IMG/VR virus record: IMGVR_UViG_3300027779_000041 | Coordinates: 1 to 51,388 of that record | Origin: a virus | Reading direction: 5' to 3' (one strand) | Length of the DNA stretch: 51,388 nt | Shown: piece by piece, positions 12,467 to 49,346 of the stretch | Position numbering within the stretch: position 1 is the first letter of the stretch | Layout: every line of letters starts with the position of its first letter | Notes under the pieces: model-generated | What the model was told of the DNA's origin: nothing | Seen by the model: only the letters and a program-made list of their open reading frames with translations | Database searches by the model: none | Position numbers and translations under genes: made by a program

Positions 12467-12475
12467 TTTATTCCC

Positions 12476-16234: not shown

Positions 16235-16246
16235 AATTCGTCCTTA

Positions 16247-28299: not shown

Positions 28300-28942
28300 T
28301 TCTTAAACTCACAATGTCTTTAGCTTTTTTGTCACCAAGTAATGCATCACAAAAACCGAAATATAAACATTCATCTGCATCTAAATACCAATCACCATTC
28401 TTCATTTTTCTTAAAATATAATTTTTGGCTTTTTCTTGTGTTGCATCTTCATAGTTTTCTTTAAAGAATTTAGACTTAATAAGATATTTTGAATAAATAT
28501 CTACCATTATATCGCAACACCTCTTATCAAACTTAGCATTTGCTTGTGCATTTAAATAATGACCTTCATAAGCACTTGAGCCATAGTGAGACATAAAGTA
28601 AGAATATGGAGTCATTACTCTAAAATCAGCAGATTGCAGTATAATGCTACTCATGGATTCCGCATGAGAATATGCAACCATTGTAATAAAAGAAGTACAA
28701 GCATTTATAGCATCATAAATAGCCATTCCTGCACCCCAATCACCACCTATTGAATACATATGTATTAAAATTGGCTTATCATTTAATGATTCTAAGTAGT
28801 TGATATTTTTAATTAGTTGTGTAGCCATTCTAAAATCTACACCGGGATCTTCTTCATTGGAGGACATAAAAGAATTGATATAAATTTCTCTAGTTTTGGT
28901 ATTTACACCGTAGCTATGTATATCATTTAGAAATTCATACAT
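28292..28942 (-). CDS. ClpP-like serine protease
   Basis: This 216-residue protein matches the ClpP/crotonase fold: PILIHMYSIGGDWGAGMAIYDAI (57-79), MVAYSHAESMSSIILQSAD (88-106) with the nucleophile S96 in the AESM motif, and YSYFMSHYGSS with catalytic H119. ClpP-like enzymes in phages often act as head maturation proteases. Here a separate protease-like domain exists next to the scaffold, so this one may do another job or share the work. The stop overlaps the terminase start. It lacks an obvious ATPase partner in the window. It is slightly longer than bacterial ClpP. Confidence 0.8.
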   Translation of the reverse strand: MYEFLNDIHSYGVNTKTREIYINSFMSSNEEDPGVDFRMATQLIKNINYLESLNDKPILIHMYSIGGDWGAGMAIYDAINACTSFITMVAYSHAESMSSIILQSADFRVMTPYSYFMSHYGSSAYEGHYLNAQANAKFDKRCCDIMVDIYSKYLIKSKFFKENYEDATQEKAKNYILRKMKNGDWYLDADECLYFGFCDALLGDKKAKDIVSLRNG

Positions 28943-29454
28943 TATTTTTGCCTCCCAATAGTATATAGTTCATTTATCCTCTTAAAGAGACTACTTATAT
29001 ACAAAAAAGCATTGTATTTATCATCTGCAAACACAATATGTATTCCATCGTGTACTTGAAATTGCATTAAGCATCTTAAAATATATTTTCCTGTTATTTT
29101 TACCGACTTGATTTTATCTGCTGGTATCCTGGTTTCGTCTGGAAATTTAAGCAAATCATCTAAACTAAATTCTAAAACTATAAATCTATGAGGAAACTCT
29201 TTCATCCTTTCAATTTCATTCATAAATGCATGTTTTTGTTTACCAAGATTAATAGCAATTTCTTCAACAGAGGCTTTTCTTTCTACACAAATCTTATCCT
29301 CCATACCTTCAATGGTATAATCACCAGTATCTAATTTTTGGGTAACCATACCCGCACATTTATTAAATTTTTTAAAGAAATAACCGTTTTGTTCTCTAGT
29401 ATCTTTAATAACATAGTAATCAGGAATATCGGGTTTTTTAAATTTTTTAGCCAT
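28942..29454 (-). CDS. ERCC4-type nuclease
   Basis: This 170-residue protein is a minimal XPF/MUS81-type nuclease domain: DTREQ (18-22), LDTGDYTI (41-48, D45) and the signature ERK (58-60) in ICVERKASVEEIAINL. These residues build the metal-dependent active site that cuts branched or flapped DNA. A helicase-like or HhH domain is absent, so another protein may guide it. It overlaps the HNH gene and touches the ClpP-like gene, all in the terminase operon. A role in resolving branched replicative DNA before packaging is inferred. Confidence 0.85.
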   Translation of the reverse strand: MAKKFKKPDIPDYYVIKDTREQNGYFFKKFNKCAGMVTQKLDTGDYTIEGMEDKICVERKASVEEIAINLGKQKHAFMNEIERMKEFPHRFIVLEFSLDDLLKFPDETRIPADKIKSVKITGKYILRCLMQFQVHDGIHIVFADDKYNAFLYISSLFKRINELYTIGRQK

Positions 29455-31529: not shown

Positions 31530-32324
31530 TTACTCCTTGACGGTATCCGGTGTTAAAAATGGTTGATCTACCTGCCCATCTCCATATTTATGGTATGAAC
31601 TTAACCTTTCTTTCTCTTTTGACATTGCAAGTCTCATTTTTTCCATCTGAATACCATATTGCCTACTAAGTTCGGGATTACTAATAAGATATGTTAGCCA
31701 ACCCGTAAAAGATTGCCTACTGTCCTCTAATCTTTTGACCCGTTGCTCCCTAGTAGCCTTCATCTCCTTCAACATCTTGTTCTTTTTATCCTGAAGGTCG
31801 CGGTAATCGCGGTTTAGTGACTCCATCGACGCTTTTAGCGAAGCACACTGTCTTTCTAAGTTAAAAATATGATCTCTGTCCTGCTGATCAGAATCCTTAG
31901 CTCTCTCCTCTTGAACTAAAGCCTCAAAAGCCGAGATTTGATTTAAATTTTCCTTATTTGCCTTCAAAGACCTATTCATTAACAAATCGAGCTTAATTAA
32001 ATCAATTACCTGTAATTCTTCCGTGGGTATTACATCATCTTTAAACTGAGAAATGATTCTTGACCAGTGATATTTAAACATTACCAACTCATCATCGGTA
32101 AATTGCTGTTTTAGGTCATGCCAATAAGGACGCTCCTCCAAATCATACGCCGCTTCTTCCTCATCAGAAAGTCCGACCTTGAATTTCCGCTTAATAAATT
32201 GCTGAACACTATCTGGGTCTCTATCTAATTTTTCCGAGATATCAACTATAGACATAACGCCCATACTTGATTCTATAAATTTTTCTTCTTCTTTAGATAT
32301 CCTACCCCTCTTCATAGTAACCAT
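31530..32324 (-). CDS. HTH and coiled-coil protein, possible small terminase
   Basis: This is a 264-residue protein. The N-terminal ~50 residues (GRISKEEEKFIESS, SIVDISEKLDRDPDSVQQFI) form a helix-turn-helix like those of phage DNA-binding proteins. Residues ~125-215 are a long charged coiled coil (EALVQEERAKDSDQQDRD, SLKASMESLNRDYRDLQDKK). DNA-binding N-terminus plus oligomerising coil is the architecture of small terminase subunits, and no other candidate for one exists upstream of the large subunit. However, four to six genes lie between the two, so a transcription regulator is the alternative. The start overlaps the sigma-like gene by 23 bases. Confidence 0.55.
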   Translation of the reverse strand: MVTMKRGRISKEEEKFIESSMGVMSIVDISEKLDRDPDSVQQFIKRKFKVGLSDEEEAAYDLEERPYWHDLKQQFTDDELVMFKYHWSRIISQFKDDVIPTEELQVIDLIKLDLLMNRSLKANKENLNQISAFEALVQEERAKDSDQQDRDHIFNLERQCASLKASMESLNRDYRDLQDKKNKMLKEMKATREQRVKRLEDSRQSFTGWLTYLISNPELSRQYGIQMEKMRLAMSKEKERLSSYHKYGDGQVDQPFLTPDTVKE

Positions 32325-32811
32325 TCTCCTCTAATATATCCTCAATCATCATTTGAATCTCATCCCGCCGTGGCTTTGCAATATAGACATCATTAATCAT
32401 CTTTAGATAATCAAGCCGCATAGATGGCGGCATATGAATATCCATTAATTTTGCCATGTCGCGGTAATCGATGTCCTCATATGTAATATTATTCTTATCA
32501 AACTCCATATAATAAGATTCATCAAGTTGAGCCGGTTGCGTTATATTAATACGAACAGGATCGTCACTTTGGGTAAAGTGGTTGTCCCTCACAAAATTCT
32601 TCATTCTGTTAGAAAGATGAACGGCCAGAAAGTTTTCCAGTGGTCGAAGCCCGTCATAACGAGGCAATGCCTCCATACAAATAATAAATGCCTCCTGCTT
32701 CAGATCCGCAATAGTATATGCGTGAAATGTATACTTAGGGGCTGTGCGATCAACAACCCGCTGAATAATTTCAACGGTTTCTTCTTCTGTCATGTTTTCC
32801 GGTACTTGCAC
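32302..32811 (-). CDS. Sigma-70 region 2-like late sigma factor
   Basis: This 169-residue protein contains a sigma region 2: DLKQEAFIICMEALPRYDG (36-54, RNA-polymerase-binding DLxQE) and PLENFLAVHLSNRMKNFVRD (57-76, -10 recognition). A region 4 for -35 recognition is missing. T4 gp55 has the same plan and reads -10-only late promoters TATAAATA. The five TTGTGTATAAT-type motifs in the left arm are suitable targets. The start used is GTG at 32811 with GAGGAG upstream. An internal ATG at 32793 is the alternative. It is among the first genes transcribed toward the head module. Confidence 0.75.
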   Translation of the reverse strand: MQVPENMTEEETVEIIQRVVDRTAPKYTFHAYTIADLKQEAFIICMEALPRYDGLRPLENFLAVHLSNRMKNFVRDNHFTQSDDPVRINITQPAQLDESYYMEFDKNNITYEDIDYRDMAKLMDIHMPPSMRLDYLKMINDVYIAKPRRDEIQMMIEDILEENGYYEEG

Positions 32812-33910: not shown

Positions 33911-34440
33911 TGACTTATCAAGAGGGAAATTTCTTTTTGAACCATGTCCGGCAAATATCTCGTCCTGTGGACGAATCAGTTGTGTGACCGGCGAGCTGCA
34001 ATGCTTAAAGAAATTACCTGAATGGTCTGGAGTTTAGCATGAGTATTACCCGTACTCATATTAGAATTACGAGCGTTGCTCGATAAGAGTAACAATCGGA
34101 CAGAATGGATCAGGCTCTGGCGACAGAGGACTTACTGAAAATTCAGGAGTTGAGGTTTAAGCATCCTCCCAAACATCAAGTGGTAATCATGATCCTTTTG
34201 CAGTTCGCTCACAGATGGTAAGTTAATAGCTACTGGTAGTAACCAGTTGTAGCTATATGCTCGGGTTGTATCTTGACTCTACCTAAACACCAAGCGAAAT
34301 AAATAGGGGCGAGGGGGTAAGATTGGGTAGGACATTGATATTGGTGCTGGTGAATTATGTTTGCACCACCCTGGCTTTTTCCACAGCAAGACACCATTCT
34401 ATCTTTGAAGATAAAACCCCTACCACTATATTTGTATAAG
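33911..34440 (+). ncRNA. Candidate large structured RNA, divergent region
   Basis: No plausible gene fills this ~530-base stretch, but it folds well by eye. Helices are 33928-36 with 34007-15 (9 bp), TCGTCC/GGACGA hairpin (33960-74), 34017-23 with 34141-47 (7 bp, enclosing three hairpins), ATGAGTA/TACTCAT (34039-59), CGAGC/GCTCG (34070-82), CTCTG-GCGA-CAGAG (34115-28, a GNRA loop on the plus strand), a 12-bp hairpin at 34226-56, TGGTGC/GCACCA (34342-68) and TAGGGG/CCCCTA (34304-09 with 34417-22). ATGCTTAAA (34001-09) also pairs with 34156-64, which would make a pseudoknot with the first helix. The GNRA loop favours the plus strand. The family is unknown; large phage RNAs such as GOLLD or ROOL are options. 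Confidence 0.5.
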
Positions 34441-34518
34441 TCGTTGTACAGTATAGACTTAGAGCGATACTAGTGGGCTTTCGGCGACGTAAGTCGTTTG
34501 ATAGCAATGACTTAGGTC
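34437..34518. repeat. Paired inverted-repeat element, copy 1
   Basis: The first arm pair is degenerate (TAAGTCGTT ... GACTTA, 34437-61). The second is GACGTAAGTC ... GACTTAGGTC (34486-34518). It stands 62 bases before a consensus -10 box. This is the first of six related elements in the early region. Confidence 0.7.
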
Positions 34519-34556
34519 AATATGGGAAATATCTTTTATTTTCTTGTGCAAAGCTA

Positions 34557-34585
34557 TTGACAAACGGCAATGATGCCGATATAAT
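34557..34585 (+). promoter_or_regulatory. Consensus sigma-70 promoter
   Basis: TTGACA (34557-62), 17 bases, TATAAT (34580-85), a perfect consensus. GCCGATA directly precedes and overlaps the -10 box. It drives the gene at 34629. Confidence 0.85.
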
Positions 34586-34628
34586 ACTTAGAGACACAAG
34601 ACAAAGACAACACAACAAAGGAAACACA

Positions 34629-34784
34629 ATGATCAATCCACTACCACGACCAACACACAAACTGACAGTACATGCATCAGACAAACCTGTGTTTCTTCCC
34701 CAACCAACACACAAACTCACAGTAAACGTATCAGACAAGAAATCTCACAAAAACTGCAATACTTACGAAATCTACACGAATTAG
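34629..34784 (+). CDS. Small protein with duplicated PTHKLTV motif, 51 aa
   Basis: The ATG at 34629 lies 43 bases after the consensus promoter. A longer frame from 34473 would cross that promoter and is rejected. The 51-residue protein carries two copies of the motif PTHKLTV-x2-SDK (residues 6-17 and 23-34). It ends in CNTYEIYTN. The weak ribosome-binding site is AAAGGAAA. No family is recognised. The duplication suggests a two-site binding peptide. Confidence 0.55.
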   Translation: MINPLPRPTHKLTVHASDKPVFLPQPTHKLTVNVSDKKSHKNCNTYEIYTN

Positions 34785-34786
34785 GG

Positions 34787-34815
34787 TTGAAACAACCAGA
34801 ACCATATGGTACAAT
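34787..34815 (+). promoter_or_regulatory. Sigma-70-type promoter
   Basis: TTGAAA (34787-92), 17 bases, TACAAT (34810-15). The leader after the -10 box, ACACTATCACAAACAAC, is shared with other early transcripts. It drives the gene at 34855. Confidence 0.7.
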
Positions 34816-34854
34816 ACACTATCACAAACAACAAACAACACACAAGGCAACACA

Positions 34855-35034
34855 ATGAAACGCTTTCACTACTCTTTCACAATCGTACCGCTTTCAGGTA
34901 ACAGCGAAGTTTCTACATCAGGCATCATCTCTGCTGAGAATGAAGAAATCGCTATCATCTTCGCTCGCGACCATCATCGAAAAACCACAAAGATTTTTGG
35001 CAAGGCGATTGACATTCGCTGCTTTGAACTGTAG
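34855..35034 (+). CDS. Small protein, 59 aa, unknown
   Basis: The ATG at 34855 follows the promoter by 39 bases. The frame encodes 59 residues (MKRFHYSFTIVPLSG ... AIDIRCFEL), with a beta-beta-alpha-like pattern (ARDHHRKTTKIFGKAIDI). The opening MKRF is shared with the next gene (MKRFNVIAKYL), which may indicate duplication of a start region. Its TAG stop forms part of the next gene's -10 box. Confidence 0.55.
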   Translation: MKRFHYSFTIVPLSGNSEVSTSGIISAENEEIAIIFARDHHRKTTKIFGKAIDIRCFEL

Positions 35035-35037
35035 AAT
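35009..35037 (+). promoter_or_regulatory. Promoter inside gene end
   Basis: TTGACA (35009-14), 17 bases, TAGAAT (35032-37). The -35 box lies within codons of the preceding gene and the -10 box includes its TAG stop. The leader ACACTCTCACACAAC matches other early leaders. Confidence 0.7.
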
Positions 35038-35072
35038 ACACTCTCACACAACACACCACCAAAGGAAATAAC

Positions 35073-35288
35073 ATGAAACGCTTCAACGTAATTGCTAAGT
35101 ATCTCGACACTGATCAGGTAATGAATCACCAAAGTGTTCGGGAAGATCAGATTGATTTTGTCAATCAGACTTTCAATTACAATCCCTTTTATCCTGCTCA
35201 ACCAATCCAGAGCATTGAGAATGTTGACACCGGATACCTCGCAGCATTTGACAGCTACTGTGAACAATTCGGCACAGCAGCGGAGTAG
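35073..35288 (+). CDS. Small protein, 71 aa, unknown
   Basis: This 71-residue protein starts 36 bases after its own promoter, with AAAGGA upstream of the ATG. It is acidic, with NYNPFYPAQPIQSIENVDTG in the middle, and helical at the C-terminus (YLAAFDSYCEQFGTAAE). No family is recognised. It is likely an early host-takeover protein by position. Confidence 0.55.
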   Translation: MKRFNVIAKYLDTDQVMNHQSVREDQIDFVNQTFNYNPFYPAQPIQSIENVDTGYLAAFDSYCEQFGTAAE

Positions 35289-35291
35289 GGT

Positions 35292-35378
35292 ATGAGTAAG
35301 CAAAACAGGATTGAAACCATTGCTGTATTCTCAGGAATAATAATTGCAATAATCTTCGCTACTATCTCGACAGGGTAG
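35292..35378 (+). CDS. Single-span membrane peptide, 28 aa
   Basis: An ATG at 35292, three bases after the previous stop, opens MSKQNRIETIAVFSG followed by a hydrophobic stretch IIIAIIFATIS. It is one transmembrane span with a charged N-terminus. The GTAGGGT in front is a weak ribosome-binding site. Its size and position, directly before a repeat element, suggest it ends the cassette. Confidence 0.45.
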   Translation: MSKQNRIETIAVFSGIIIAIIFATISTG

Positions 35379-35409
35379 AGCTGTCCTACCCAAAGGAATC
35401 AGCTAAGCC

Positions 35410-35495
35410 GACGTAAACCCTTACACAGTAACGACTTACGACACGGAAGGCCCGCCCCCGGCGACGTAAGTCCTTTGGTAGCAACGGGTTATGTC
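35410..35495. repeat. Paired inverted-repeat element, copy 2
   Basis: GACGTAAACCC ... GACTTACGAC (35410-42), a GC-rich spacer with GGCCCGCCCCC, then GACGTAAGTCC ... GGTTATGTC (35463-95). It starts 32 bases after a stop codon. It is followed by a TACTTTGGAATACTTTGG stretch that also occurs after copy 5. Confidence 0.8.
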
Positions 35496-35573
35496 AATTT
35501 TCCGCAAGCAAATTCCATGCCATAAATACTTTGGAATACTTTGGAAATTAACGCCCATATGCTGATGACAGGC

Positions 35574-35602
35574 TTTACGTGTGTCGATAATTATAGTACA
35601 AT
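35574..35602 (+). promoter_or_regulatory. Sigma-70-type promoter
   Basis: TTTACG (35574-79), 17 bases, TACAAT (35597-602). GTCGATA lies in the spacer. An ATG occurs six bases after the -10 box (35609). Confidence 0.6.
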
Positions 35603-35638
35603 ACACGTATGACAAACAACAACACAAAAGGAAACAAG

Positions 35639-35911
35639 ATGACAAGTCAAGAGCAAGCAATCAAAATCAAAGAAGCAACCGCCCGTAAATGGGCACGTCG
35701 CCAAGCACGCTGGACAGCGAAGAAGGCCGAAACGGCCAACGAAGAAGTTACACCGAACTGGGGTATTGAAGCTGGACAGGATGCGGTTTTCGAAGGCCGA
35801 TGGATTCACGTTGACGAAGTCAATCCCACTACAGGCGAGTTTTTCGGAAACGATCAGGATGGCGACGAAGTCTCAGGATTCGCCGATTCTCTTGACCATG
35901 TTTATAATTAG
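35639..35911 (+). CDS. Small protein with basic N-terminal helix, 90 aa
   Basis: The preferred start is ATG 35639 (MTSQEQAIKIKEATARK), with AAGGA eight bases before it. ATG 35609, ten codons upstream in frame, sits where transcription should begin and could give a leaderless longer form. Residues 8-35 are a strongly basic helix (ATARKWARRQARWTAKKAE). The C-terminal half is acidic with EGRWIHVDEVNPTTGEFFG, a beta hairpin pattern. A nucleic-acid-binding role is possible but not shown. Confidence 0.6.
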   Translation: MTSQEQAIKIKEATARKWARRQARWTAKKAETANEEVTPNWGIEAGQDAVFEGRWIHVDEVNPTTGEFFGNDQDGDEVSGFADSLDHVYN

Positions 35912-35924
35912 CCTGCAATTGACC

Positions 35925-35954
35925 TTGCATTTTCCACCTCTTATCTGGTACAAT
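35925..35954 (+). promoter_or_regulatory. Weak sigma-70-type promoter
   Basis: TTGCAT (35925-30), 18 bases, TACAAT (35949-54), followed by the shared leader ACACTCTCACAAACAAC. It drives the gene at 35996. Confidence 0.5.
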
Positions 35955-35995
35955 ACACTCTCACAAACAACGAACGAAAAACAGAAAGTAGAACA

Positions 35996-36232
35996 ATGGC
36001 TGGAGTATCTTGGAACGACCGATTTTCCTGCGAAATCCCAAACAAAGACGGAAACCGCGTTTTCTTGAGCATTCGGGAAATGCTGGCTTTTATGTGGCTG
36101 CAAGGTGCTAAAGCAATCGCCTACGATGACGAGTTTAGTTGCTGGCGTTGTACTGATCCCGAGTGGGTCGCAGGCCGCAAGAAATACTCTGACATGGTAC
36201 AACGACAATGTGACCGATACGGTTGCGAATAG
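35996..36232 (+). CDS. Small protein, 78 aa, unknown
   Basis: This 78-residue protein has four Cys residues (RFSCEIP, SCWRCTDPEW, QRQCDRYGCE), with CWRC close together, and several Trp. It might bind a metal. The start lies 42 bases after the promoter. The ribosome-binding site is weak (AGAAAGTAGAACA). No family is recognised. Confidence 0.55.
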   Translation: MAGVSWNDRFSCEIPNKDGNRVFLSIREMLAFMWLQGAKAIAYDDEFSCWRCTDPEWVAGRKKYSDMVQRQCDRYGCE

Positions 36233-36301
36233 CATTCGACCAACACCTGAAGCCAGACAGGATAACAATGGCACCCCACACACCCTCAAAGGAAAAACAA
36301 A

Positions 36302-36415
36302 ATGAAAAACAGTCCTGACCTAGTATTTGCCGTATCGGTTGCGGTTGGATTCTTCCTGACTGGTGCTACAATCGCACTGGCTGGAATCGCTCTCGAAATA
36401 ATTGTCCTACACTAA
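36302..36415 (+). CDS. Small hydrophobic membrane peptide, 37 aa
   Basis: ATG at 36302 follows AAAGGAAAAACAA and encodes 37 residues. Residues 8-34 (VFAVSVAVGFFLTGATIA, LAGIALEII) form one long or two short membrane spans. It lies between a small soluble gene and repeat element 3, like the 28-residue peptide before element 2. Holin-like size, but no lysis context. Confidence 0.45.
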   Translation: MKNSPDLVFAVSVAVGFFLTGATIALAGIALEIIVLH

Positions 36416-36443
36416 TGTCTCACCTAAAGGAATCGGATCGGCT

Positions 36444-36529
36444 GACGTAAACCCTTGGTATCAAACGACTTACGGCGAGGAAGCCCGGCCCCAAAATTCC
36501 TAAGTCCTTTGGTAGTAACGACTTACGTC
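36444..36529. repeat. Paired inverted-repeat element, copy 3
   Basis: GACGTAAACCC ... GACTTACGGC (36444-76), spacer with GCCCGGCCCC, then TCCTAAGTCC ... GACTTACGTC (36498-529). It starts 29 bases after a stop codon and ends 72 bases before a TATAAT box. Confidence 0.8.
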
Positions 36530-36577
36530 AATATCTAAAAACTTTTAATTATTTGTGTGTTTTTGTAATGAACAGCA

Positions 36578-36606
36578 TTGACTTTGGACGATAATAGTAG
36601 TATAAT
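36578..36606 (+). promoter_or_regulatory. Strong sigma-70 promoter
   Basis: TTGACT (36578-83), 17 bases, TATAAT (36601-06). GGACGATA lies in the spacer. The start codon of the next gene is only six bases behind the -10 box. Confidence 0.8.
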
Positions 36607-36612
36607 ACAACT

Positions 36613-36804
36613 ATGAAAAACAACACAACCAAAATCGTCGCAACGGCTCCAGATCATCTCGCTGGCTGGGATTATAAACTCTACAACTACGGCAAAAAGT
36701 GGGCCATCAGGATAAATCATAATGATGAGCCAGTAGGATGTCATCATTTCGGCTCTGAAAAATATATCAAGAAAGTTTGGAAAAAATACACAGATCGGGC
36801 TTGA
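36613..36804 (+). CDS. Small protein, 63 aa, likely leaderless
   Basis: The ATG at 36613 lies at the expected transcription start of the strong promoter at 36578-36606. No other in-frame ATG or GTG exists nearby, so the mRNA is probably leaderless. The 63-residue protein is basic with aromatic residues (AGWDYKLYNYGKKWAIRINH, GSEKYIKKVWKKYTDRA). It may bind nucleic acid. No family is recognised. Confidence 0.6.
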   Translation: MKNNTTKIVATAPDHLAGWDYKLYNYGKKWAIRINHNDEPVGCHHFGSEKYIKKVWKKYTDRA

Positions 36805-36828
36805 TACATCAGGCGAGTTCTGATACAA
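36800..36828 (+). promoter_or_regulatory. Sigma-70-type promoter
   Basis: TTGATA (36800-05), 17 bases, TACAAT (36823-28). The -35 box overlaps the stop codon of the preceding gene. It drives the gene at 36864. Confidence 0.7.
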
Positions 36829-36863
36829 TACTCAGACACTTTTCAACTTGAAGGATTGACACG

Positions 36864-37031
36864 ATGAACAGTTTTGATGAGATTCAGTGCGAAGAAACCC
36901 CAAACGAGCAACTTTGTTTCAACATGGAAGAAATGGCATTCATGCAGGAATGGGAAGACGGACGGAAAAGAGAATTTCAGGAAGAACTTGACAATCTGGC
37001 GGATTTGATGGCCGCTGAACTTGACTTTTGA
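36864..37031 (+). CDS. Small acidic protein, 55 aa
   Basis: ATG at 36864, 35 bases after its promoter, encodes 55 residues with a net negative charge (FDEIQCEETPNEQL, EEMAFMQEWEDGRKREFQEEL). It is almost entirely helical. DNA-mimic inhibitors have such composition, but this is only a compositional remark. A terminator follows 20 bases after the stop. Confidence 0.55.
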   Translation: MNSFDEIQCEETPNEQLCFNMEEMAFMQEWEDGRKREFQEELDNLADLMAAELDF

Positions 37032-37049
37032 GATTGGATGTGTTACAAT
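37021..37049 (+). promoter_or_regulatory. Promoter directly before terminator
   Basis: TTGACT (37021-26), 17 bases, TACAAT (37044-49). The expected start (about 37056) is inside the terminator stem that follows, so a productive transcript seems unlikely. It resembles the promoter at 37126-54. Confidence 0.4.
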
Positions 37050-37050
37050 T

Positions 37051-37077
37051 AAGACCCCGCCCTTCGGGGGTCTTTCT
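37051..37077 (+). terminator. Rho-independent terminator
   Basis: AAGACCCC ... GGGGTCTT forms an 8-bp stem with a loop containing CCCTTC, followed by TTCTT. It lies 20 bases after the stop at 37031 and ends that cassette. Confidence 0.85.
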
Positions 37078-37125
37078 TGGTTCGATTAGTTTTTCATTTG
37101 AACTTGGAAACTTTTGGGAATAGAC

Positions 37126-37154
37126 TTGACATTGTCTTTTGAGTGTGTTACAAT
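37126..37154 (+). promoter_or_regulatory. Strong sigma-70 promoter
   Basis: TTGACA (37126-31), 17 bases, TACAAT (37149-54), followed by the leader ACACACTCACAAACC. It drives the run of genes 37190-38276. Confidence 0.8.
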
Positions 37155-37189
37155 ACACACTCACAAACCTTACTTTGGAGATTGAGAAG

Positions 37190-37420
37190 ATGAAGATTGA
37201 AACGACGTACACTGTTGGAAACGTGAAGCACATTACTTGTTGGAGTAACTTAGAGATTTGTTGTGAAGACGGCAGTACAGTCATCGTGCCTATGTCAATT
37301 TCAGACAAACAGATTCTGGCTGATAGTTTGCTGAACCGAATCAAGAACGACAAGAAACGTGAGTTGGAAAGTCTGAAAAGTGATTTGGAAGCGATTGAAG
37401 CAAAAGAAAATGAGGAATAA
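37190..37420 (+). CDS. Small protein with helical C-terminus, 76 aa
   Basis: The ATG at 37190 follows TTGGAG. A TTG 17 codons upstream overlaps the promoter and is rejected. The first half is beta-rich (KIETTYTVGNVKHITCWSN, GSTVIVPMSISDKQ). The second half is a charged helix (LNRIKNDKKRELESLKSDL). No family is recognised. It heads a run of six closely packed small genes. Confidence 0.6.
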   Translation: MKIETTYTVGNVKHITCWSNLEICCEDGSTVIVPMSISDKQILADSLLNRIKNDKKRELESLKSDLEAIEAKENEE

Positions 37421-37428
37421 TTATTATT

Positions 37429-37500
37429 ATGACCGTTTTGCTTTCACTTCTGCCACTAGTGGCATTCCTGTACATTATTAGAGAAACCCGCGAACCATGA
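37429..37500 (+). CDS. Membrane peptide, 23 aa
   Basis: ATG at 37429 encodes MTVLLSLLPLVAFLYIIRET, followed by REP. It is one hydrophobic span followed by a basic tail. The stop overlaps the next start (ATGA), which suggests coupling with the exported protein behind it. The ribosome-binding site is weak (GAGGAATAATT). Confidence 0.4.
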   Translation: MTVLLSLLPLVAFLYIIRETREP

Positions 37501-37736
37501 AAAATCTCTTGCTTTCTATTGCTTTGTTTTGTATCATGGGTGGAATTGCTGAATCAGCAGAACCTGAAAAGATCTATGTTCAACCTGTGCCTGTGTTTTA
37601 TAGTTGGATCGGCGGTTATACTAACTTTCCACAATACCGAATGCACAGACCAGCATACTACGTTTGGCCAACAATCATTATAAAAGAACAACCAAAGAAA
37701 ACTATGATGTTAGGCGATTTGCCACAATACTTTTAA
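37497..37736 (+). CDS. Exported small protein with signal peptide, 79 aa
   Basis: Residues 1-21 (MKNLLLSIALFCIMGGIAESA) form a typical Sec signal peptide: a Lys, a hydrophobic core and A-x-A-like cleavage before EPEK. The mature part is rich in Tyr, Pro and Trp (YVQPVPVFYSWIGGYTNFPQ, RPAYYVWPTIII). It is probably periplasmic. It could act at the host envelope, for example in superinfection exclusion. No family is recognised. Its start overlaps the membrane peptide in front. Confidence 0.6.
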   Translation: MKNLLLSIALFCIMGGIAESAEPEKIYVQPVPVFYSWIGGYTNFPQYRMHRPAYYVWPTIIIKEQPKKTMMLGDLPQYF

Positions 37737-37745
37737 GGTTACAGA

Positions 37746-37964
37746 ATGTATACACATATCAAATTTATCCGACCATCGACGGGAAGTGAAATACTTGTAA
37801 AGCCACCTTGCGACTCATTTGATGAAAGGTTATTCGTCGATAACTCAGAGGCTGCAAATTGGGCGGTAAAAATGTTTCCGGACTTTATTCCAATGGAGTT
37901 ATTGGAAGAACAACAAGCACAATTTTTAATGAGGAGTGAGTTTGAATCAGACACCAATAATTAA
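37746..37964 (+). CDS. Small protein, 72 aa, unknown
   Basis: This 72-residue protein begins MYTHIKFIRPSTGSEILVKPP and contains a helix at FDERLFVDNSEAANWAVKMF. It ends acidic (EEQQAQFLMRSEFESDTNN). Its 3' end overlaps the following small gene by 23 bases in another frame. No family is recognised. Confidence 0.55.
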   Translation: MYTHIKFIRPSTGSEILVKPPCDSFDERLFVDNSEAANWAVKMFPDFIPMELLEEQQAQFLMRSEFESDTNN

Positions 37965-38082
37965 AGTAGGAACTGAGCTAGAGATTGGCACCGTTGTTAA
38001 AATCCTGCACGACGGTGTTATGATTAAGAAGGCAGGAAATGAGTTTAAAGTATCTTTTAAAACCGTAGAAAGAGAAGTTTAA
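37942..38082 (+). CDS. Small SH3/KOW-like protein, 46 aa, TTG start
   Basis: A TTG at 37942 with AGGAG five bases before it opens a 46-residue frame. GTG 37936 is an alternative. The pattern VGTELEIGTVVKILHDGVMI is followed by KKAGNEFKVSFKTVER, five short strands like an SH3/KOW barrel. It overlaps the previous gene by 23 bases in another frame. Its TAA overlaps the next ATG (TAATG), so it seems coupled to the similar beta-rich protein behind it. Confidence 0.5.
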   Translation: MNQTPIIKVGTELEIGTVVKILHDGVMIKKAGNEFKVSFKTVEREV

Positions 38083-38276
38083 TGATTAAGACACACAAGC
38101 GAATTGGTAGCACTGTAAAGTTTATGTATCCACGACATGGAAAGTTTAACATTCTTCGGAATGTAAGTGGTGTTGTGGTTGGTAAGGGTAAGGGGCCGAA
38201 TGGTCCATATCTGACCGTTGACGAGGTTCGGGGTGGCACCCGCTGTTTCTCGACCAAGAAAATTGTTGACATGTAA
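38082..38276 (+). CDS. Small basic beta-rich protein, 64 aa
   Basis: This 64-residue basic protein has strands such as GSTVKFMYPRHGKF, SGVVVGKGKGPNGPYLTVDE and RGGTRCFSTKKI. The pattern resembles small RNA- or DNA-binding barrels (SH3/KOW type). It is the last gene before repeat element 4. No exact family is recognised. Confidence 0.55.
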   Translation: MIKTHKRIGSTVKFMYPRHGKFNILRNVSGVVVGKGKGPNGPYLTVDEVRGGTRCFSTKKIVDM

Positions 38277-38287
38277 ATTGTGTTGTG

Positions 38288-38375
38288 TCGCCGTAAGTCC
38301 CTGCCCCGTAAGGGGTTAGGGCGGGCGGGGCGGGCCGGTTTTGTCGTAAGTCCTTTGATACCATACACTTACGTC
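38288..38375. repeat. Paired inverted-repeat element, copy 4
   Basis: The first half contains a hairpin CCCTGCCCC-GTAA-GGGGTTAGGG (38299-321) with a GNRA-type loop on the plus strand. A GC-rich spacer follows, then GTCGTAAGTCC ... CTTACGTC (38343-75). It starts 12 bases after a stop codon. Confidence 0.8.
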
Positions 38376-38407
38376 GATTGTTATTTTTGAGAACTTGGGC
38401 ATTCGCA

Positions 38408-38461
38408 CCACACCTGCTATTGTGTGGGATGTCCCATCTAACCCTAAAGGGTTGCGTTTTT
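38408..38461 (+). terminator. Tandem hairpins with T-tract
   Basis: Hairpin CCACAC/GTGTGG (38408-27) is followed by AACCC-TAAA-GGGTT (38440-53), then GCGTTTTT. The second hairpin could act as a weak terminator. It stands between repeat element 4 and the consensus promoter at 38510. Confidence 0.4.
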
Positions 38462-38509
38462 ATAGTACAGCCAGTGAGTTAGCGAGTTAGCCAATTTTGA
38501 CTAAAGTCC

Positions 38510-38538
38510 TTGACATCATATGGACGATATGATATAAT
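38510..38538 (+). promoter_or_regulatory. Perfect consensus sigma-70 promoter
   Basis: TTGACA (38510-15), 17 bases, TATAAT (38533-38). GGACGATA is in the spacer. It drives the 152-residue gene and the GP88-like gene. Confidence 0.85.
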
Positions 38539-38570
38539 GGGGAGTATCTTAGCCTCAACGGAGAACGACC

Positions 38571-39029
38571 ATGCCGCGTAAAACTCATTGTATTAATGTT
38601 CATAAGACGGATTCTAGACTTGCTGAGTTATGTCGCACCAAACTGGATTTCAGTAAACCGATTGAAGTTTACAAAAATCTCCACAAAGATTGCTGGTCAA
38701 TCCGGCAGAACAGAATTGTTCAATTTCACACAGATTACATTTGTTTGCAGGATGCTGAGTTTATAGTGTCACAAGCCGGACGTTTGCGAGTGTTGAAGAA
38801 TGCTCAAAAGAATGTTCATGCGTTTGTTCGTGGTTTTTGGTGTGATCCAAAACAGCAGTGGGAAAATCGGTTGCCGCTACCTTTCAAGCCAGTCACCTAT
38901 AACCCGTACAAATACGATTCGTTTGTGTTGGCAAATACGAACGGAGAACCTATAGAACGTGCAAAATTCGTGGATATGGCCATTGGCCATTGCTATGGTT
39001 CCGAAGTTGTGGTACAATTCACCGCGTAA
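38571..39029 (+). CDS. Protein of unknown function, 152 aa
   Basis: This 152-residue basic protein has five to six strands (FSKPIEVYKNLHKDCWSIRQ, RIVQFHTDYICLQDAEFIV) and a centre RLRVLKNAQKNVHAFVRGFW. The pattern KNVHAFVRG resembles a small phage family of unknown function that often occurs next to GP88-like genes. GGAG precedes the ATG. It is the first gene of the transcript from the perfect promoter at 38510, so it is likely made early and abundantly. Confidence 0.6.
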   Translation: MPRKTHCINVHKTDSRLAELCRTKLDFSKPIEVYKNLHKDCWSIRQNRIVQFHTDYICLQDAEFIVSQAGRLRVLKNAQKNVHAFVRGFWCDPKQQWENRLPLPFKPVTYNPYKYDSFVLANTNGEPIERAKFVDMAIGHCYGSEVVVQFTA

Positions 39030-39056
39030 CACTTTTCCCCTATTGGAGGAGCGACT

Positions 39057-39827
39057 ATGTCATTCTCAAAAGCCAACAACAAATTGCAAGCAATGGTCGA
39101 TCATCCTGATCTGCAAGTATATCTTGAGAATAAGCGTAAAGTTTATTCGTTCGATCTATTGTCTGGTCACTCGTGTCCGTTTGCTGAACAATGTTTGAGT
39201 AAGGTAAAAATTGTAGATGGTAAGCGGAAAGTTGTGGACGGCAAGAAAACAGAATTTCGCTGTTTCAGTGCATCACAGGAAGCCACATATACGAACGTGT
39301 ACAATTCTCGCAAGAAGAATTTTGACAATTTGCGTGGTAAGTCTGCTGGTGAGATGGTTTCGATTATTCGTGACCAGATGCCGAAGAATCTGGGAATCTG
39401 CCGAATTCACGTTGCTGGTGATTTCTTCAGCCCGGCATACTTTGAAGCATGGATTAGAACGGCAATCATGAATCCAGACCGATTGTTCTATGCTTATACT
39501 AAGTCTTTACCTTATTGGGTTGATAATCTGGAAATTATTCCCGATAATCTGATTCTTACCGCAAGTTATGGTGGACGCCGTGACGATATGATTGTAGACT
39601 ATGGTCTACGATCTGCGAAAGTAGTGTTCTCTTATGAGGAAGCCGATATGCTGGGTTTGGAAGTCGATCACGATGACACACACGCAGCAAATCCGTTTTG
39701 GGGAAATGATGATTTTGCCCTTATTATTCATGGCATTCAACCGAAAGGATCTGAGGCAGCGGACGCAATCAAGCAACTCAAAAAAGATGGAAAGAGGTTT
39801 AGCTATGGGAAGGCACAAACCGCATGA
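39057..39827 (+). CDS. GP88-like phage protein
   Basis: This 256-residue protein is similar in pattern to the gene product 88 family first seen in mycobacteriophages: LSGHSCPFAEQCLSK (with two Cys), FRCFSASQEATYTNVYNSRKK, RIHVAGDFFSPAYFEAW and FYAYTKSLPYW, followed by Cys-poor alpha/beta sequence. The two Cys of the first motif and the CF after FR look like a metal or Fe-S cluster site. The biochemical function of the family is unknown. It begins 27 bases after the preceding gene with GGAGGA upstream, in the same transcript. Confidence 0.7.
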   Translation: MSFSKANNKLQAMVDHPDLQVYLENKRKVYSFDLLSGHSCPFAEQCLSKVKIVDGKRKVVDGKKTEFRCFSASQEATYTNVYNSRKKNFDNLRGKSAGEMVSIIRDQMPKNLGICRIHVAGDFFSPAYFEAWIRTAIMNPDRLFYAYTKSLPYWVDNLEIIPDNLILTASYGGRRDDMIVDYGLRSAKVVFSYEEADMLGLEVDHDDTHAANPFWGNDDFALIIHGIQPKGSEAADAIKQLKKDGKRFSYGKAQTA

Positions 39828-39916
39828 AAAATGCCGGTGATTTGTTTTTGTGTATTTTTATTATGTTCGCAGTGGTAATTTTTGGAGTAAAGTACAATGA
39901 TTCTGACAATGAATAA
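39824..39916 (+). CDS. Membrane peptide, 30 aa
   Basis: The start overlaps the stop of the GP88-like gene (ATGA). It encodes MKNAGDLFLCIFIMFAVVIF and a short tail GVKYNDSDNE: one membrane span with the polar end probably in the cytoplasm. It overlaps the next gene in another frame. Confidence 0.4.
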   Translation: MKNAGDLFLCIFIMFAVVIFGVKYNDSDNE

Positions 39917-40169
39917 AACAGGTGATGCAATGGATAATGTCAAAGTAGAATGTTGGAAATGTTCGAATGCACATAGTATTCGGGTAAAACCATCGGACTA
40001 CAAGGAATGGCAGGAGGGTGAATTGATTCAGGATGTTTTGTATTATCTTACTGAAGATGAGAGGGAATTACTAATTTCGGGAACTTGTGGGGATTGTTGG
40101 GATACTCTGTTTGGGGTGGATGACGAGAATGGGGAAATTACGGACGATGACTTAATCTGGGAGGAATGA
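39897..40169 (+). CDS. Small zinc-ribbon-like protein, up to 90 aa
   Basis: The frame contains C-x2-C pairs at ECWKCSN and TCGDCWD, enough for one zinc site. It ends in a very acidic tail (DDENGEITDDDLIWEE). Three starts are possible: 39897 (GGAG nine bases upstream), 39909 and 39930 (AGGTG upstream). The longest is reported. Its stop lies 10 bases before repeat element 5. The family is unknown. Confidence 0.6.
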   Translation: MILTMNKTGDAMDNVKVECWKCSNAHSIRVKPSDYKEWQEGELIQDVLYYLTEDERELLISGTCGDCWDTLFGVDDENGEITDDDLIWEE

Positions 40170-40178
40170 CAGCAAAAC

Positions 40179-40268
40179 GTCGCCGTAAGTCCTTACCCCG
40201 CAAGGGGTTAGGACGCCGGGGGCGGGCTGCGAGCGTCGTAACTCCTTTGATACCAACGACTTACGACG
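40179..40268. repeat. Paired inverted-repeat element, copy 5
   Basis: The first half is a long hairpin GTCCTTACCCC-GCAA-GGGGTTAGGAC (40189-214), ten of eleven pairs, with a GNRA loop. The second is CGTCGTAACTCC ... GACTTACGACG (40234-68). TACTTTGGAAAACTTTGAG follows, as after copy 2. Confidence 0.8.
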
Positions 40269-40358
40269 ATTCTGGGATGTCTTGCCCTATCTTTACCGAT
40301 TGCCGCCGAAATACTTTGGAAAACTTTGAGAAATAAGCCCTAATCACTAAGGCTGAGC

Positions 40359-40387
40359 TATACAACTGCCGATAATTAAGGTATAAT
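40359..40387 (+). promoter_or_regulatory. Sigma-70-type promoter
   Basis: TATACA (40359-64), 17 bases, TATAAT (40382-87). GCCGATAATT lies in the spacer. An ATG occurs six bases after the -10 box (40394). Confidence 0.65.
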
Positions 40388-40441
40388 ACCTGTATGACGC
40401 GACAACGAGTCGCAAACAACCCCTTTTTTGGAGAACGTAGA

Positions 40442-41332
40442 ATGACGACTTTAACAACTGACACCGCACTGGAAACCGTCCAGAACACTTTCAACTTTTC
40501 GGTTGACAAGTTTCCACTGTACGGCCCCGACAATATGCGAACGCCTCATTTCGGATTGTTCCGATCTGACAACAGCGAATGTGTTGGCAAATCAGTTTCT
40601 GCCCGATATGTTCCGCACAATACGGATGACATTTTGGCAATCACTGAAGCCGCTGCCGAAGCGTTCGACGGTGATACAAATGTCCGTTGCCACTTTCGCA
40701 ATGGTCATTTTGTTCAATTTGCACCTTCGAATGAGGATCGTCGTGATATGTTCAATGTTGCCGGTGGTGACAACATCTTCCCGCGATTCATGGTCAACGG
40801 TGGTTATGATGGTCGAGGCTTCAAAGCTGAGATTGGATTCTTCCGTGACATGTGTTTGAATCTGTCAATGATGAAATCTGTCGAGTCGTTTTCTCGATCA
40901 ATTCGTCACACTTCTGGTCTTCGTGGTCAAATGGATGAACTGATCGGAGCATTCTCAATGCTCAAAGAATCGTGGTGCGATCTGACTGCCATGATCAAGC
41001 AAATGAGTCAACAGACAGTTGACATGCGAGATTTCTTGAATGAGATCTATCCAGAGCCTGTCGAGGATGCTGGCAAACGTGCGGTGACGGTTCACAAGAA
41101 TCGTACAGAATTGATTCTCAAGCGTTTGAGTGGTGAGATGCGGCGTAGTAACGTCGATTTCGACCTGCGGAATCCCAACGCATGGCTTGCATACAATGCC
41201 GTGCAGGGATACGAGCAGCACGATGCAACTCGACGCAAGTCATTCAACAATGATTTCGACAGGGTTCTCAAAGCTGGGAATTCTCAGGCTGTTCACAAAG
41301 CTGAGAAACTGGCTCTGGAACTGATCGCATAG
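40442..41332 (+). CDS. DUF932 family protein
   Basis: This protein has about 296 residues from ATG 40442 (MTTLTTDTALETVQN), preceded by TTGGAG. An in-frame ATG at 40394 sits right at the transcription start and would add 16 residues. The sequence fits DUF932 phage/plasmid proteins: SVSARYVPHNTDDILAITEAA, GRGFKAEIGFFRDMCLNLSM and, near the C-terminus, NAWLAYNAVQGYEQHD, a hallmark of the family. The function is unknown; members occur near replication and early genes. It is a single-gene cassette with its own promoter and terminator. Its GC content is visibly higher than that of the late genes. Confidence 0.8.
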   Translation: MTTLTTDTALETVQNTFNFSVDKFPLYGPDNMRTPHFGLFRSDNSECVGKSVSARYVPHNTDDILAITEAAAEAFDGDTNVRCHFRNGHFVQFAPSNEDRRDMFNVAGGDNIFPRFMVNGGYDGRGFKAEIGFFRDMCLNLSMMKSVESFSRSIRHTSGLRGQMDELIGAFSMLKESWCDLTAMIKQMSQQTVDMRDFLNEIYPEPVEDAGKRAVTVHKNRTELILKRLSGEMRRSNVDFDLRNPNAWLAYNAVQGYEQHDATRRKSFNNDFDRVLKAGNSQAVHKAEKLALELIA

Positions 41333-41345
41333 TTGAGAATAGGGG

Positions 41346-41384
41346 TGCCCTGCCCGGTTGTCGTTCGCCGGGCGGGGTTTTCTT
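41346..41384 (+). terminator. Rho-independent terminator
   Basis: GCCCGG (41352-57) pairs with CCGGGC (41368-73), extended by CCC/GGG outside a bulge. TTTTCTTATTTCT follows. It lies 14 bases after the DUF932 stop. Confidence 0.85.
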
Positions 41385-41404
41385 ATTTCTTTAAAATAGT
41401 AATT

Positions 41405-41490
41405 GACCTAAACCCTTGCCACCAAAGGACTTAGGGCCGACGCGGCCCGCCCCGATTTCCCTAACTCCTTACCACCAAACGACTTACATC
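41405..41490. repeat. Paired inverted-repeat element, copy 6
   Basis: GACCTAAACCC ... GACTTAGGGC (41405-37), a spacer GACGCGGCCCGCCCC, then CCCTAACTCC ... GACTTACATC (41459-90). Here it follows a normal terminator, so it need not itself be one. Confidence 0.75.
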
Positions 41491-41527: not shown

Positions 41528-41555
41528 TTGCTCTATTGACGATATATGATATAAT
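41528..41555 (+). promoter_or_regulatory. Sigma-70-type promoter
   Basis: TTGCTC (41528-33), 16 bases, TATAAT (41550-55). GACGATAT lies in the spacer. The -35 box is weak. Confidence 0.5.
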
Positions 41556-42267: not shown

Positions 42268-42340
42268 GGGTCCATAGCTCAATGGTTAGAGCAGCGAACT
42301 CATAATTCGTTGGTTGTAGGTTCGAGTCCTACTGGACCCA
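42268..42340 (+). tRNA. tRNA-Met (CAT)
   Basis: The acceptor GGGTCCA pairs with TGGACCC. The anticodon loop CTCATAA gives CAT. The T arm contains GTTCGAGTC. CAT may be elongator Met or, after lysidine modification, Ile; I cannot decide from sequence. Confidence 0.92.
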
Positions 42341-42349
42341 TTTCGTTTG

Positions 42350-47512: not shown

Positions 47513-48240
47513 CTGATGATTTGGAATATCAAGAGTTAATCAAAGCAGATGCGATGGACAGAATGTCTGATCTTCACGGATATTGCCAACTTACTTTTTA
47601 TGAGCCAATGCCTTTGAAGTTAGGCCCCTATGATTTAATATTTGAAGATACTCCACTTGATTCGGCTTCCGTTTTCGGTTGTATTTTTGAGGCAGCTATG
47701 ATCAAGTCCGGTGCCACGGAGAAAGCAACTATTACCAGAGAAGCCAACAACAAATCTCCCTATGATTTTACTATAGAAACAGAGGATTGTATTATCCTCA
47801 TCAATCTCAAGGTACGGAGAGTCAGGCGGAATGGCAAGAATGCTGGTGAGAGTGGGATTGCTGCCTATTCCAACCTATTGAACTGCTTAGAAAAACATAA
47901 CAAGGATAAGCCGGTATTCTACTATGTCTATACAATAGAATATGATCTTGATCATAATAAAGAAGAGATCGTATTCTTATCATTTGATTATTACTGCTTG
48001 AATAATGTACTGATGGAGCCAGTGCGTACAGACGGTAGAAAGTGGAGTACAAAGTCAAAAAAAATTACTGGTAGAATTATGCTACACGCTGGTAATTCAA
48101 GATTAAAGAATATTGTTCCGACGTTTAATGAATTCACACTGAGGTTAGAACAACTAAGACGTCTTGAGTCTGATCTAAAATTACCAAAGGATTATTTTTA
48201 TGGTCGGGCTTGTGACCCTAACATCAAGATATTAATTTAA
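47509..48240 (+). CDS. Possible PD-(D/E)XK restriction endonuclease
   Basis: This 243-residue protein is located just before the cytosine methyltransferase. It contains GCIFEAAMIKSGA (E61) and SPYDFTIETEDCIILINLKVRR (D86 and K101), a pattern that fits a PD-(D/E)XK core with N99 in place of the usual acidic residue. Type II restriction enzymes often have this layout and lie next to their methyltransferase. Beyond the core, VFYYVYTIEYD is a typical strand. Sequence specificity is unknown. It may be a nuclease, a regulator or inactive. The 16-base gap to the methyltransferase supports an operon. Confidence 0.5.
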   Translation: MTDDLEYQELIKADAMDRMSDLHGYCQLTFYEPMPLKLGPYDLIFEDTPLDSASVFGCIFEAAMIKSGATEKATITREANNKSPYDFTIETEDCIILINLKVRRVRRNGKNAGESGIAAYSNLLNCLEKHNKDKPVFYYVYTIEYDLDHNKEEIVFLSFDYYCLNNVLMEPVRTDGRKWSTKSKKITGRIMLHAGNSRLKNIVPTFNEFTLRLEQLRRLESDLKLPKDYFYGRACDPNIKILI

Positions 48241-48256
48241 AAGGGGAAGATTAACT

Positions 48257-49333: not shown

Positions 49334-49346
49334 GGAAGGATGAATT

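Follow-up and report, generated by a model that had tools for sequence, protein, structure and literature searches.

The window analyzed here, that is the whole stretch of 51,388 nucleotides of the IMG/VR virus record IMGVR_UViG_3300027779_000041 (GC content 37.6%), contains six copies of a paired inverted-repeat element, which probably is a double-dyad upstream regulatory site that acts on promoter-bound RNA polymerase in an array of small transcription units. Judged from the DNA sequence, an upstream regulatory site is the simplest account because a near-symmetric, promoter-phased and promoter-class-specific site precedes many small units. The argument draws on the sites and their geometry, on promoter phasing and promoter class, on the array, and on the lack of consistent covariation between the arms. 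Bases 88-51388 of the window are 100% identical to part of a longer record, G026 (157,369 bases).

In all six copies, an imperfect inverted repeat of 33 bp (IR1), a GC-rich core of 20 bp and a second 33-bp inverted repeat of the same type (IR2) follow each other without gaps, and the centre-to-centre distance between IR1 and IR2 is 53 bp in six of six cases. The six elements adjoin a divergent sigma-factor operon and are located as follows:

34433..34518, plus strand: element 1, with IR1 at 34433-34465, core at 34466-34485 and IR2 at 34486-34518; IR1 and core are degenerate, and this is the most degenerate copy of the six
35410..35495, plus strand: element 2, with IR1 at 35410-35442, GC core at 35443-35462 and IR2 at 35463-35495
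36444..36529, plus strand: element 3, with IR1 at 36444-36476, GC core at 36477-36496 and IR2 at 36497-36529
38290..38375, plus strand: element 4, with IR1 at 38290-38322 (CCCC-GTAA-GGGG version), GC core at 38323-38342 and IR2 at 38343-38375
40182..40267, plus strand: element 5, with IR1 at 40182-40214 (CCCC-GCAA-GGGG version), GC core at 40215-40234 and IR2 at 40235-40267
41405..41490, plus strand: element 6, with IR1 at 41405-41437, GC core at 41438-41457 and IR2 at 41458-41490, preceded by a terminator-like site

Each half of the IR consensus reads GACGTAAGTC(C/G)TT, and the two halves flank a 7-bp centre that was left unscored by our position matrix. This matrix detected 12 sites in the window, whereas dinucleotide shuffles of the window gave none in 49 of 50 cases and one site in the remaining case, and the six paired repeats noticed in a preliminary description of this DNA are therefore real. 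Twelve arms fit GACGTAAGTC, read on one strand or the other, with no more than one mismatch, in agreement with the eleven or more counted before. The same description had reported missing T-tracts, a terminator ahead of copy 6 and GNRA-type caps; no T-tract was seen 3' of any of the six copies, copy 6 is the only one with a terminator-like site within 150 bp upstream, and the caps are present as CCCC-GTAA-GGGG in copy 4 and CCCC-GCAA-GGGG in copy 5. The CCCCG(C/T)AAGGGG version of IR1 also occurs in the related records G024, G028, G033 and G034. Two other details apply to part of the copies only. Of the two suffixes described, GTCAAT follows copies 1-3 and GTCGATT copy 4, whereas copy 5 has GACGATT and copy 6 has ATCAATT. 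The order of gene-set end, element and promoter fails at copy 1, which has no open reading frame (ORF) of at least 60 amino acids upstream, between 33829 and 34472; a conserved, apparently non-coding block that adjoins the divergent sigma-factor operon is found there instead. This block (34301-34424, just 5' of element 1; GATTGGGTAATACAT ... TTTGNACCACCCCGGCTTTTT ... TTTGAAGATAAAACCCCC) aligns with ten relatives and might represent a small RNA or contain the promoter from which the sigma operon is divergently transcribed.

Downstream of each element, a sigma-70-type promoter was predicted or, for element 6, read by eye, at a distance x, defined as the number of bases separating IR2 from the -10 box:

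34557..34585, plus strand: predicted sigma-70 promoter of element 1, TTGACA-17-TATAAT with GCCGATA in the spacer, x=61
35574..35602, plus strand: predicted promoter of element 2, TTTACG-17-TACAAT with CGATA in the spacer, x=101
36578..36606, plus strand: predicted promoter of element 3, TTGACT-17-TATAAT with ACGATA in the spacer, x=71
38510..38538, plus strand: predicted promoter of element 4, TTGACA-17-TATAAT with ACGATA in the spacer, x=157
40359..40387, plus strand: predicted promoter of element 5, TATACA-17-TATAAT with CCGATA in the spacer, x=114
41537..41555, plus strand: possible core promoter of element 6, TTGACGATATATGATATAAT, with a poor -35 box and missed by the promoter scan, x=59

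All six window promoters carry CGATA, and the window is where this motif was first noticed. The proposed pairing of one element with each promoter does not extend to promoter-like sites within cassettes (34787, 35009, 36801 and 37126), which have no element. These four sites also lack CGATA, three of them have TACAATAC as -10 box, and they perhaps form a second promoter class.

When relatives were searched, the element proved neither absent nor randomly placed, either of which would have refuted the preliminary description, but recurs in arrays. Among viral contigs, a 20-base pattern returned 35 stretches and a looser pattern at least 120. A matrix scan of the pattern-found loci and the window gave 2214 strand-wise hits, corresponding to 1107 sites each seen on both strands, compared to 2 strand-wise hits in a reversed-sequence control. 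With 18 later loci included, 1163 IR sites were counted in 204 loci (the window among them, and some overlapping or sharing one contig), and 118 of these 204 hold a pair 38-66 bp apart. Because the matrix was trained on loci fetched by pattern, diverged IR sites are under-counted. Together with 17 further phage records, whole or partial, the window made up a set of 18 sequences, in which the window and G026 share the same array. In each of the 18, elements are confined to one array, which measures between about 4 and 22 kb; a 238-kb record, for example, has 15 pairs within 112.8-130.4 kb. Distances between IRs cluster near 41-42, 49-53 and 64 bp with few in between; at the distances given here, the distinct pairs numbered 248 (53 bp), 49 (52 bp), 47 (50 bp), 27 (42 bp), 25 (51 bp), 13 (49 bp), 10 (41 bp) and 5 (64 bp). 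A genome mostly uses a single IR spacing. With the window and G026 taken as separate sequences, this spacing is 53 in 11 of 18; it is 52 in G034, 51 in G033 and 50 in G012, G017 and G023. Spacing is mixed in G002 (41 in 9 of 13) and G013 (42, 40 and 44), and a few odd pairs occur in other genomes.

Despite this recurrence, several relatives show no element in the stretch that was readable. TerL relatives are encoded by 561 of the 600 candidate stretches listed. For the 80 loci found via TerL, 33 of the 35 on contigs longer than 12 kb were tested, ten of them read in part, and 14 of the 33 match the element, at least four of which (G056, G060, G081 and G082) had already been fetched via the element. 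The ten IR sites of G081 either are single or lie over 100 bp from each other, one or two single IRs are present in L370, L372 and L378, and no IR was seen in the 0.6-2.9 kb readable beyond the sigma operon in L369, L371 and L373-L376. Some members of the lineage may thus lack the element. Among single-IR sites (L377, belonging to G081, 11294-18029; L370, 15261), an A-rich, GC, T-rich stretch takes the place of core and IR1 in L370 and in seven of the ten cases in G081, which suggests that the core plus one IR might be the basic unit. In G046 (about 48171-48806), three IR pairs follow each other at 280-bp intervals and the matches of two pairs are identical, which looks like the tandem duplication of a minimal unit.

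Searching bacterial genome records with a pattern of the looser type led to 41 stretches, among which seven loci on six contigs hold a pair. These six contigs are binned to Micavibrio, Planctomycetaceae, Nealsonbacteria, Flavobacteriales, Bacteroidetes and Bacteroidia; the bins disagree and may be mis-binned phage contigs, and no host was found from the matches in these 41 stretches. Among named phages, 11 records matched the 33-mer consensus, best in the Mycobacterium phages Cuke, Fowlmouth and MrMiyagi (E 0.3); these matches lie under annotated genes, the Cuke locus contains no scored IR, and we consider them probably due to chance. A plasmid search matched three records, with a best E of 3.

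The relation between element and promoter was analyzed across the arrays. As it contains the window, G026 was left out of the gene-family comparison, which covered 17 genomes, and it was also excluded from the promoter-side, core-similarity, terminator and attC tests. Ties aside, the better predicted promoter lies on the same side of all elements in 12 of 17 arrays; there is one exception each in G012 and G041, and G002, G013 and G023 are mixed. For the phasing and decoy analyses, only promoters scoring at least 11 were used and similar ones were removed, leaving 115 deduplicated promoters. The histogram of x has peaks near 39, 49, 59 and 70, and for x of 30-75 the promoters are phased at 10.5 bp (n=70, R=0.505, p=2e-8), as they are for x up to 130 (n=105, p=1e-4). 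With IR spacings of 51-54 only, phasing is retained (n=61, p=4e-8), also under stricter deduplication (n=31, p=1e-3). In contrast, decoys, i.e. weaker promoter-like hits in the same stretches, gave n=228, R=0.095 and p=0.13 (to 130 bp, n=433, p=0.05), and start-codon controls were unphased both from IR to ATG (n=42, p=0.24) and from -10 box to ATG (n=42, p=0.28).

Promoters that follow an element also differ in composition. In loci with at least two pairs, 39 of 86 element promoters have CGATA in the spacer between -35 and -10 boxes, compared to 20 of 199 other promoters of the arrays (p=1.3e-10); the commonest location of the motif is 12 bases upstream of the -10 box (15/39). As many of the 199 hits may be chance, the test was repeated with a ribosome site and an ATG required downstream, and the difference was maintained (34/52 versus 18/113, p=5e-10).

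For a sequence logo, 279 of 454 pairs could be oriented, 175 being ambiguous; 258 of the oriented pairs were distinct and 171 had the 53-bp spacing. The logo of these 171 elements is nearly dyad-symmetric, with GC symmetry at the exact centre, a T just before IR1 and AA just after IR2. Covariation between arms is not consistent. Compared to the expectation for independent columns, the arms of 1020 distinct IRs pair less frequently at positions 8-11, 14 and 16 and more frequently at 1-3 and 15, whereas most other positions roughly agree with it; the excess at 1/33 is at least partly an artefact of the choice of orientation. Folding of IR1 on IR2 in 248 elements revealed no consistent excess of pairing, with isolated excesses at position 4 (z 2.8, the sole IR position), one flank (z 5.7) and one core position (z 3.9). 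Promoter phasing, promoter class and the lack of consistent arm covariation support operators for a phage regulator, one of the options offered at the outset.

In the mechanism that we propose, two protein dimers or one tetramer would bind to IR1 and IR2, which usually lie about five helical turns apart with the GC-rich core between them. The bound proteins would touch RNA polymerase at the downstream sigma-70-type promoter, which, when close, tends to sit a whole number of turns away and often has CGATA as a second motif. We lean towards a phage-encoded switch that would turn the array up or down during infection. The units of the array are probably early, going by their position and gene type. 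Two genes on the opposite strand next to the array are relevant here:

32302..32811, minus strand: sigma-70 region 2 protein, a family found near the array in 17 of the 17 genomes compared
31530..32324, minus strand: f8, with an N-terminal helix-turn-helix and a long coiled coil, overlapping the sigma gene

The leading candidate for the binder is f8 or its counterpart f40. Beside the sigma gene, f8 is found in 12 genomes and f40 in the other five, and the profiles of the two families align weakly (E 1.5e-4, probability 51). IR spacing is mostly 51-53 in genomes with f8 and mostly 50 or 40-42 in those with f40, a correlation which may simply follow two clades.

Several points weigh against a regulatory site that acts on RNA polymerase from upstream. 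The 75-bp limit was chosen after viewing the histogram, distances beyond 75 are unphased (n=35, p=0.53), and for x up to 130 the strongest period scanned is 11.5 bp (p=5e-6) and not 10.5. No phasing was detected at IR spacings of 49-50 (n=8, p=0.7), single IRs were not significant (n=34, p=0.10; strict n=19, p=0.8), and pooling all classes under the strict rule left p=0.027 (n=43). Eight short words were tried upstream of the same promoters as a control, which failed: TAAAA and ATTTT, the only words giving more than 20 distances, were phased too. Since A-tracts of the UP type might explain the phased words, the IR may not account for the whole signal. IR spacings from 49 to 53 span about 140 degrees of the helix and, hence, the IRs are not in strict mutual phase. 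Three of the six window promoters are more than 75 bp from their element, CGATA was picked after reading the window, and related sequences are not independent in these statistics. As for the candidate binder, no PDB structure matched f8 significantly (best E 0.72), the third match being the HK97 small terminase (E 0.89, not significant), and f8 may be a small terminase instead. Overall, fold and sequence searches with f8 gave nothing significant.

Recombination sites that shuffle cassettes had been suggested as another option, and the element could be a site-specific recombination site, similar to integrons or dif modules, used by a host or other recombinase. We consider this unlikely. It is possible to read the 33-bp repeat as two 13-bp arms separated by a 7-bp spacer, and in the res site of Tn3/gamma-delta subsites I and II are 53 bp apart. 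Each record has a single array, in most cases with a site type of its own, and the GC cores resemble each other more within (0.61) than between genomes (0.46). End coordinates of homologous blocks fall into IRs in 97 of 920 cases, while IRs make up 2.3% of all bases; one-sided homology was seen in 612 of 840 cases at elements versus 495 of 847 at random points of the arrays, and L014 and element 2 agree up to the spacer of IR2 and diverge beyond. The L014/element 2 switch and the 97 block ends are compatible with ordinary mosaicism at unit borders but do not prove such mosaicism. However, no tyrosine recombinase (PF00589; 50 of 60 loci served as input) was found in the 49 element-bearing records or in the window, where many records are fragments and a host enzyme is possible, and a serine recombinase (PF00239) was likewise found in none of the 49; control profiles were recovered in 14/14 and 10/14 genomes. 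A common crossover point is not apparent either, although the pair of L014 and element 2 is suggestive. In 70 pairs with shared downstream sequence, similarity is lost between core and IR1, and in 25 pairs with shared upstream sequence it fades along the element, and neither pattern indicates an IR spacer; these 95 one-sided pairs, which are not independent, remained after exclusion for unlike length (52), ambiguous orientation (86), low identity (240) or homology far from the element (56). In nine comparisons of close relatives, a single block end (L161/L178) was located within an IR, all other internal breaks being outside. Recombination would not predict promoter phasing either. Without an enzyme in the 49 records, without an apparent common crossover in the IR spacer and with breaks mostly outside the elements, this option is weakened, and we rejected a site for a tyrosine or serine recombinase.

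The attC variant of this idea was considered separately. The R'' box of attC is RYYYAAC. The R' box is GTTRRRY, and attC clusters without integrase can occur in virulent phages (PMC9892861). These core boxes are present in 0 of 172 elements in either orientation. An integron attC/CALIN reading was rejected for the lack of core boxes and of consistent folding, although array form and within-genome similarity resemble it.

Likewise improbable, in our view, is a transcription boundary, i.e. a bound roadblock or a pair of RNA hairpins that stops read-through like a stoperator or terminator. The element is located between one transcription unit and the next, individual copies can be drawn as hairpins, and at least six T residues are found in the ten bases after IR2 in 8 of 144 elements. 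However, a terminator-like hairpin with a T-run is located in or just after the element in only 2 of 144, and an intrinsic terminator, which would consist of a GC-rich hairpin followed by a T-tract, was rejected on this count. Terminators occur within 150 bp upstream at 21 of 144 elements compared to 356 of 6000 random windows; terminator and element therefore coexist, and neither replaces the other. Arms without consistent covariation, the missing ORF of 60 amino acids just upstream of element 1 and the fact that the last unit of the window is not closed by an element also speak against a boundary, which would leave the phasing to the downstream promoter unexplained.

RNA polymerase can be modified by an RNA, as in the case of the put RNA of HK022. 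That the element acts as RNA, in the form of two neighbouring stem-loops that undergo cleavage, shield 3' ends or alter RNA polymerase in the manner of put, is very improbable: GNRA-like capped stems in copies 4 and 5 and in some relatives, low folding energies of single copies and excess pairing at outer IR1 positions (3/31, z 4.1; 4/30, z 2.4) would fit, but arm pairing is below independence at several positions, long-fold pairing is not consistent, and the core is found C-rich or G-rich on the same strand. RNA processing, the remaining function suggested initially, is not supported, and the RNA hairpin was rejected for lack of consistent covariation.

Known systems share single features with the proposed regulatory site. 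The regulator p4 of Bacillus phage phi29 binds to inverted repeats in front of promoters and, from there, acts on RNA polymerase on a fixed side of the helix. Inverted repeats in this position and a helical geometry are common to both, but p4 has a few sites in one control region, while here a tandem array extends over many units. Compared to a class I-type upstream regulator site, helical phasing to the core promoter is seen at x of 30-75 and at x up to 130, although the word control failed. Cluster O phage Corndog has 34 copies of a 17-bp dyad-symmetric palindrome thought to bind dimers, with intergenic copies mostly in one region and of unknown function, which are absent from M. smegmatis, M. 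tuberculosis and other mycobacteriophages (PMC4351075). The likeness consists in many dyad-symmetric sites in one phage, with intergenic copies mostly in one region; however, Corndog sites are single 7-3-7 dyads, most of them not near promoters and about one third clearly inside genes (PMC4351075), whereas here paired 33-bp dyads with a GC core are promoter-phased and lineage-wide. The ESAS of Cluster K mycobacteriophages also are imperfect inverted repeats 5' of a subset of genes, in the same families across relatives, but their repeats measure 17 bp, have a variable spacer and go together with a 13-bp start-associated sequence located at start codons (PMC3203893), whereas here spacing is mostly fixed and the element lies upstream of a predicted promoter. 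Cluster A phages such as L5 possess more than 20 regulator sites per phage, located in promoters and in short gaps between genes, but their operators/stoperators are asymmetric 13-mers bound by a monomer in an orientation-dependent way (PMC9283540); here we see paired near-symmetric 33-bp repeats, and no integrase was found in the window and the 49 records. Integron attC/CALIN arrays in virulent phages resemble the present one in being arrays of small cassettes with palindromic sites between them and no phage integrase (PMC9892861), but our element lacks R''/R' core boxes and consistent folded-strand covariation. No such element was found in the open-access literature as far as its text was available; subscription papers and preprints are outside this scope.

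It is conceivable, though somewhat doubtful, that one regulator and the double-dyad site form a lineage-wide, portable early-gene regulon in which regulator and spacing co-evolve. If so, any unit of promoter and small genes that carries the site would join the switch, and units of one genome would come to share one spacing. The element indicates where the control region lies in a lineage of uncultivated phages whose records reach 238 kb, and the site offers a handle for listing, via regulatory sequence, genes that probably are early genes for host takeover and counter-defence. For archaeal viruses, an approach of this kind is named in the title of a paper (PMC11065993). Many natural spacing variants also lend themselves to studying helix-phased action on RNA polymerase.

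Besides the sigma factor, six further families occur in 16 of the 17 genomes compared, namely head proteins, TerL, an ERCC4-type nuclease and two unnamed families; 20 kb of sequence were compared for the record in which these six are missing. The ERCC4-type nuclease (window 28942-29454) lies in the packaging block of 16 of 17 genomes. Named relatives of TerL show 23-27% identity among the matches listed (15 of 40 records), and at the limits used no named relatives were found for the 650-amino acid protein at 24293-26245, f8 and a DUF932 protein. Left-end repeats at 1-458 also match both ends of the 157-kb G026. An Rfam scan of the window detected four tRNAs and one antisense match, the latter to Plastid-ycf2 (42268-42341, minus strand) antisense to tRNA-Met and probably an artefact of that family. 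At 48257-50771, a C5 cytosine methylase adjoins a protein with GmrSD_N and HNH domains, and the two possibly constitute a pair for modification and restriction or exclusion.

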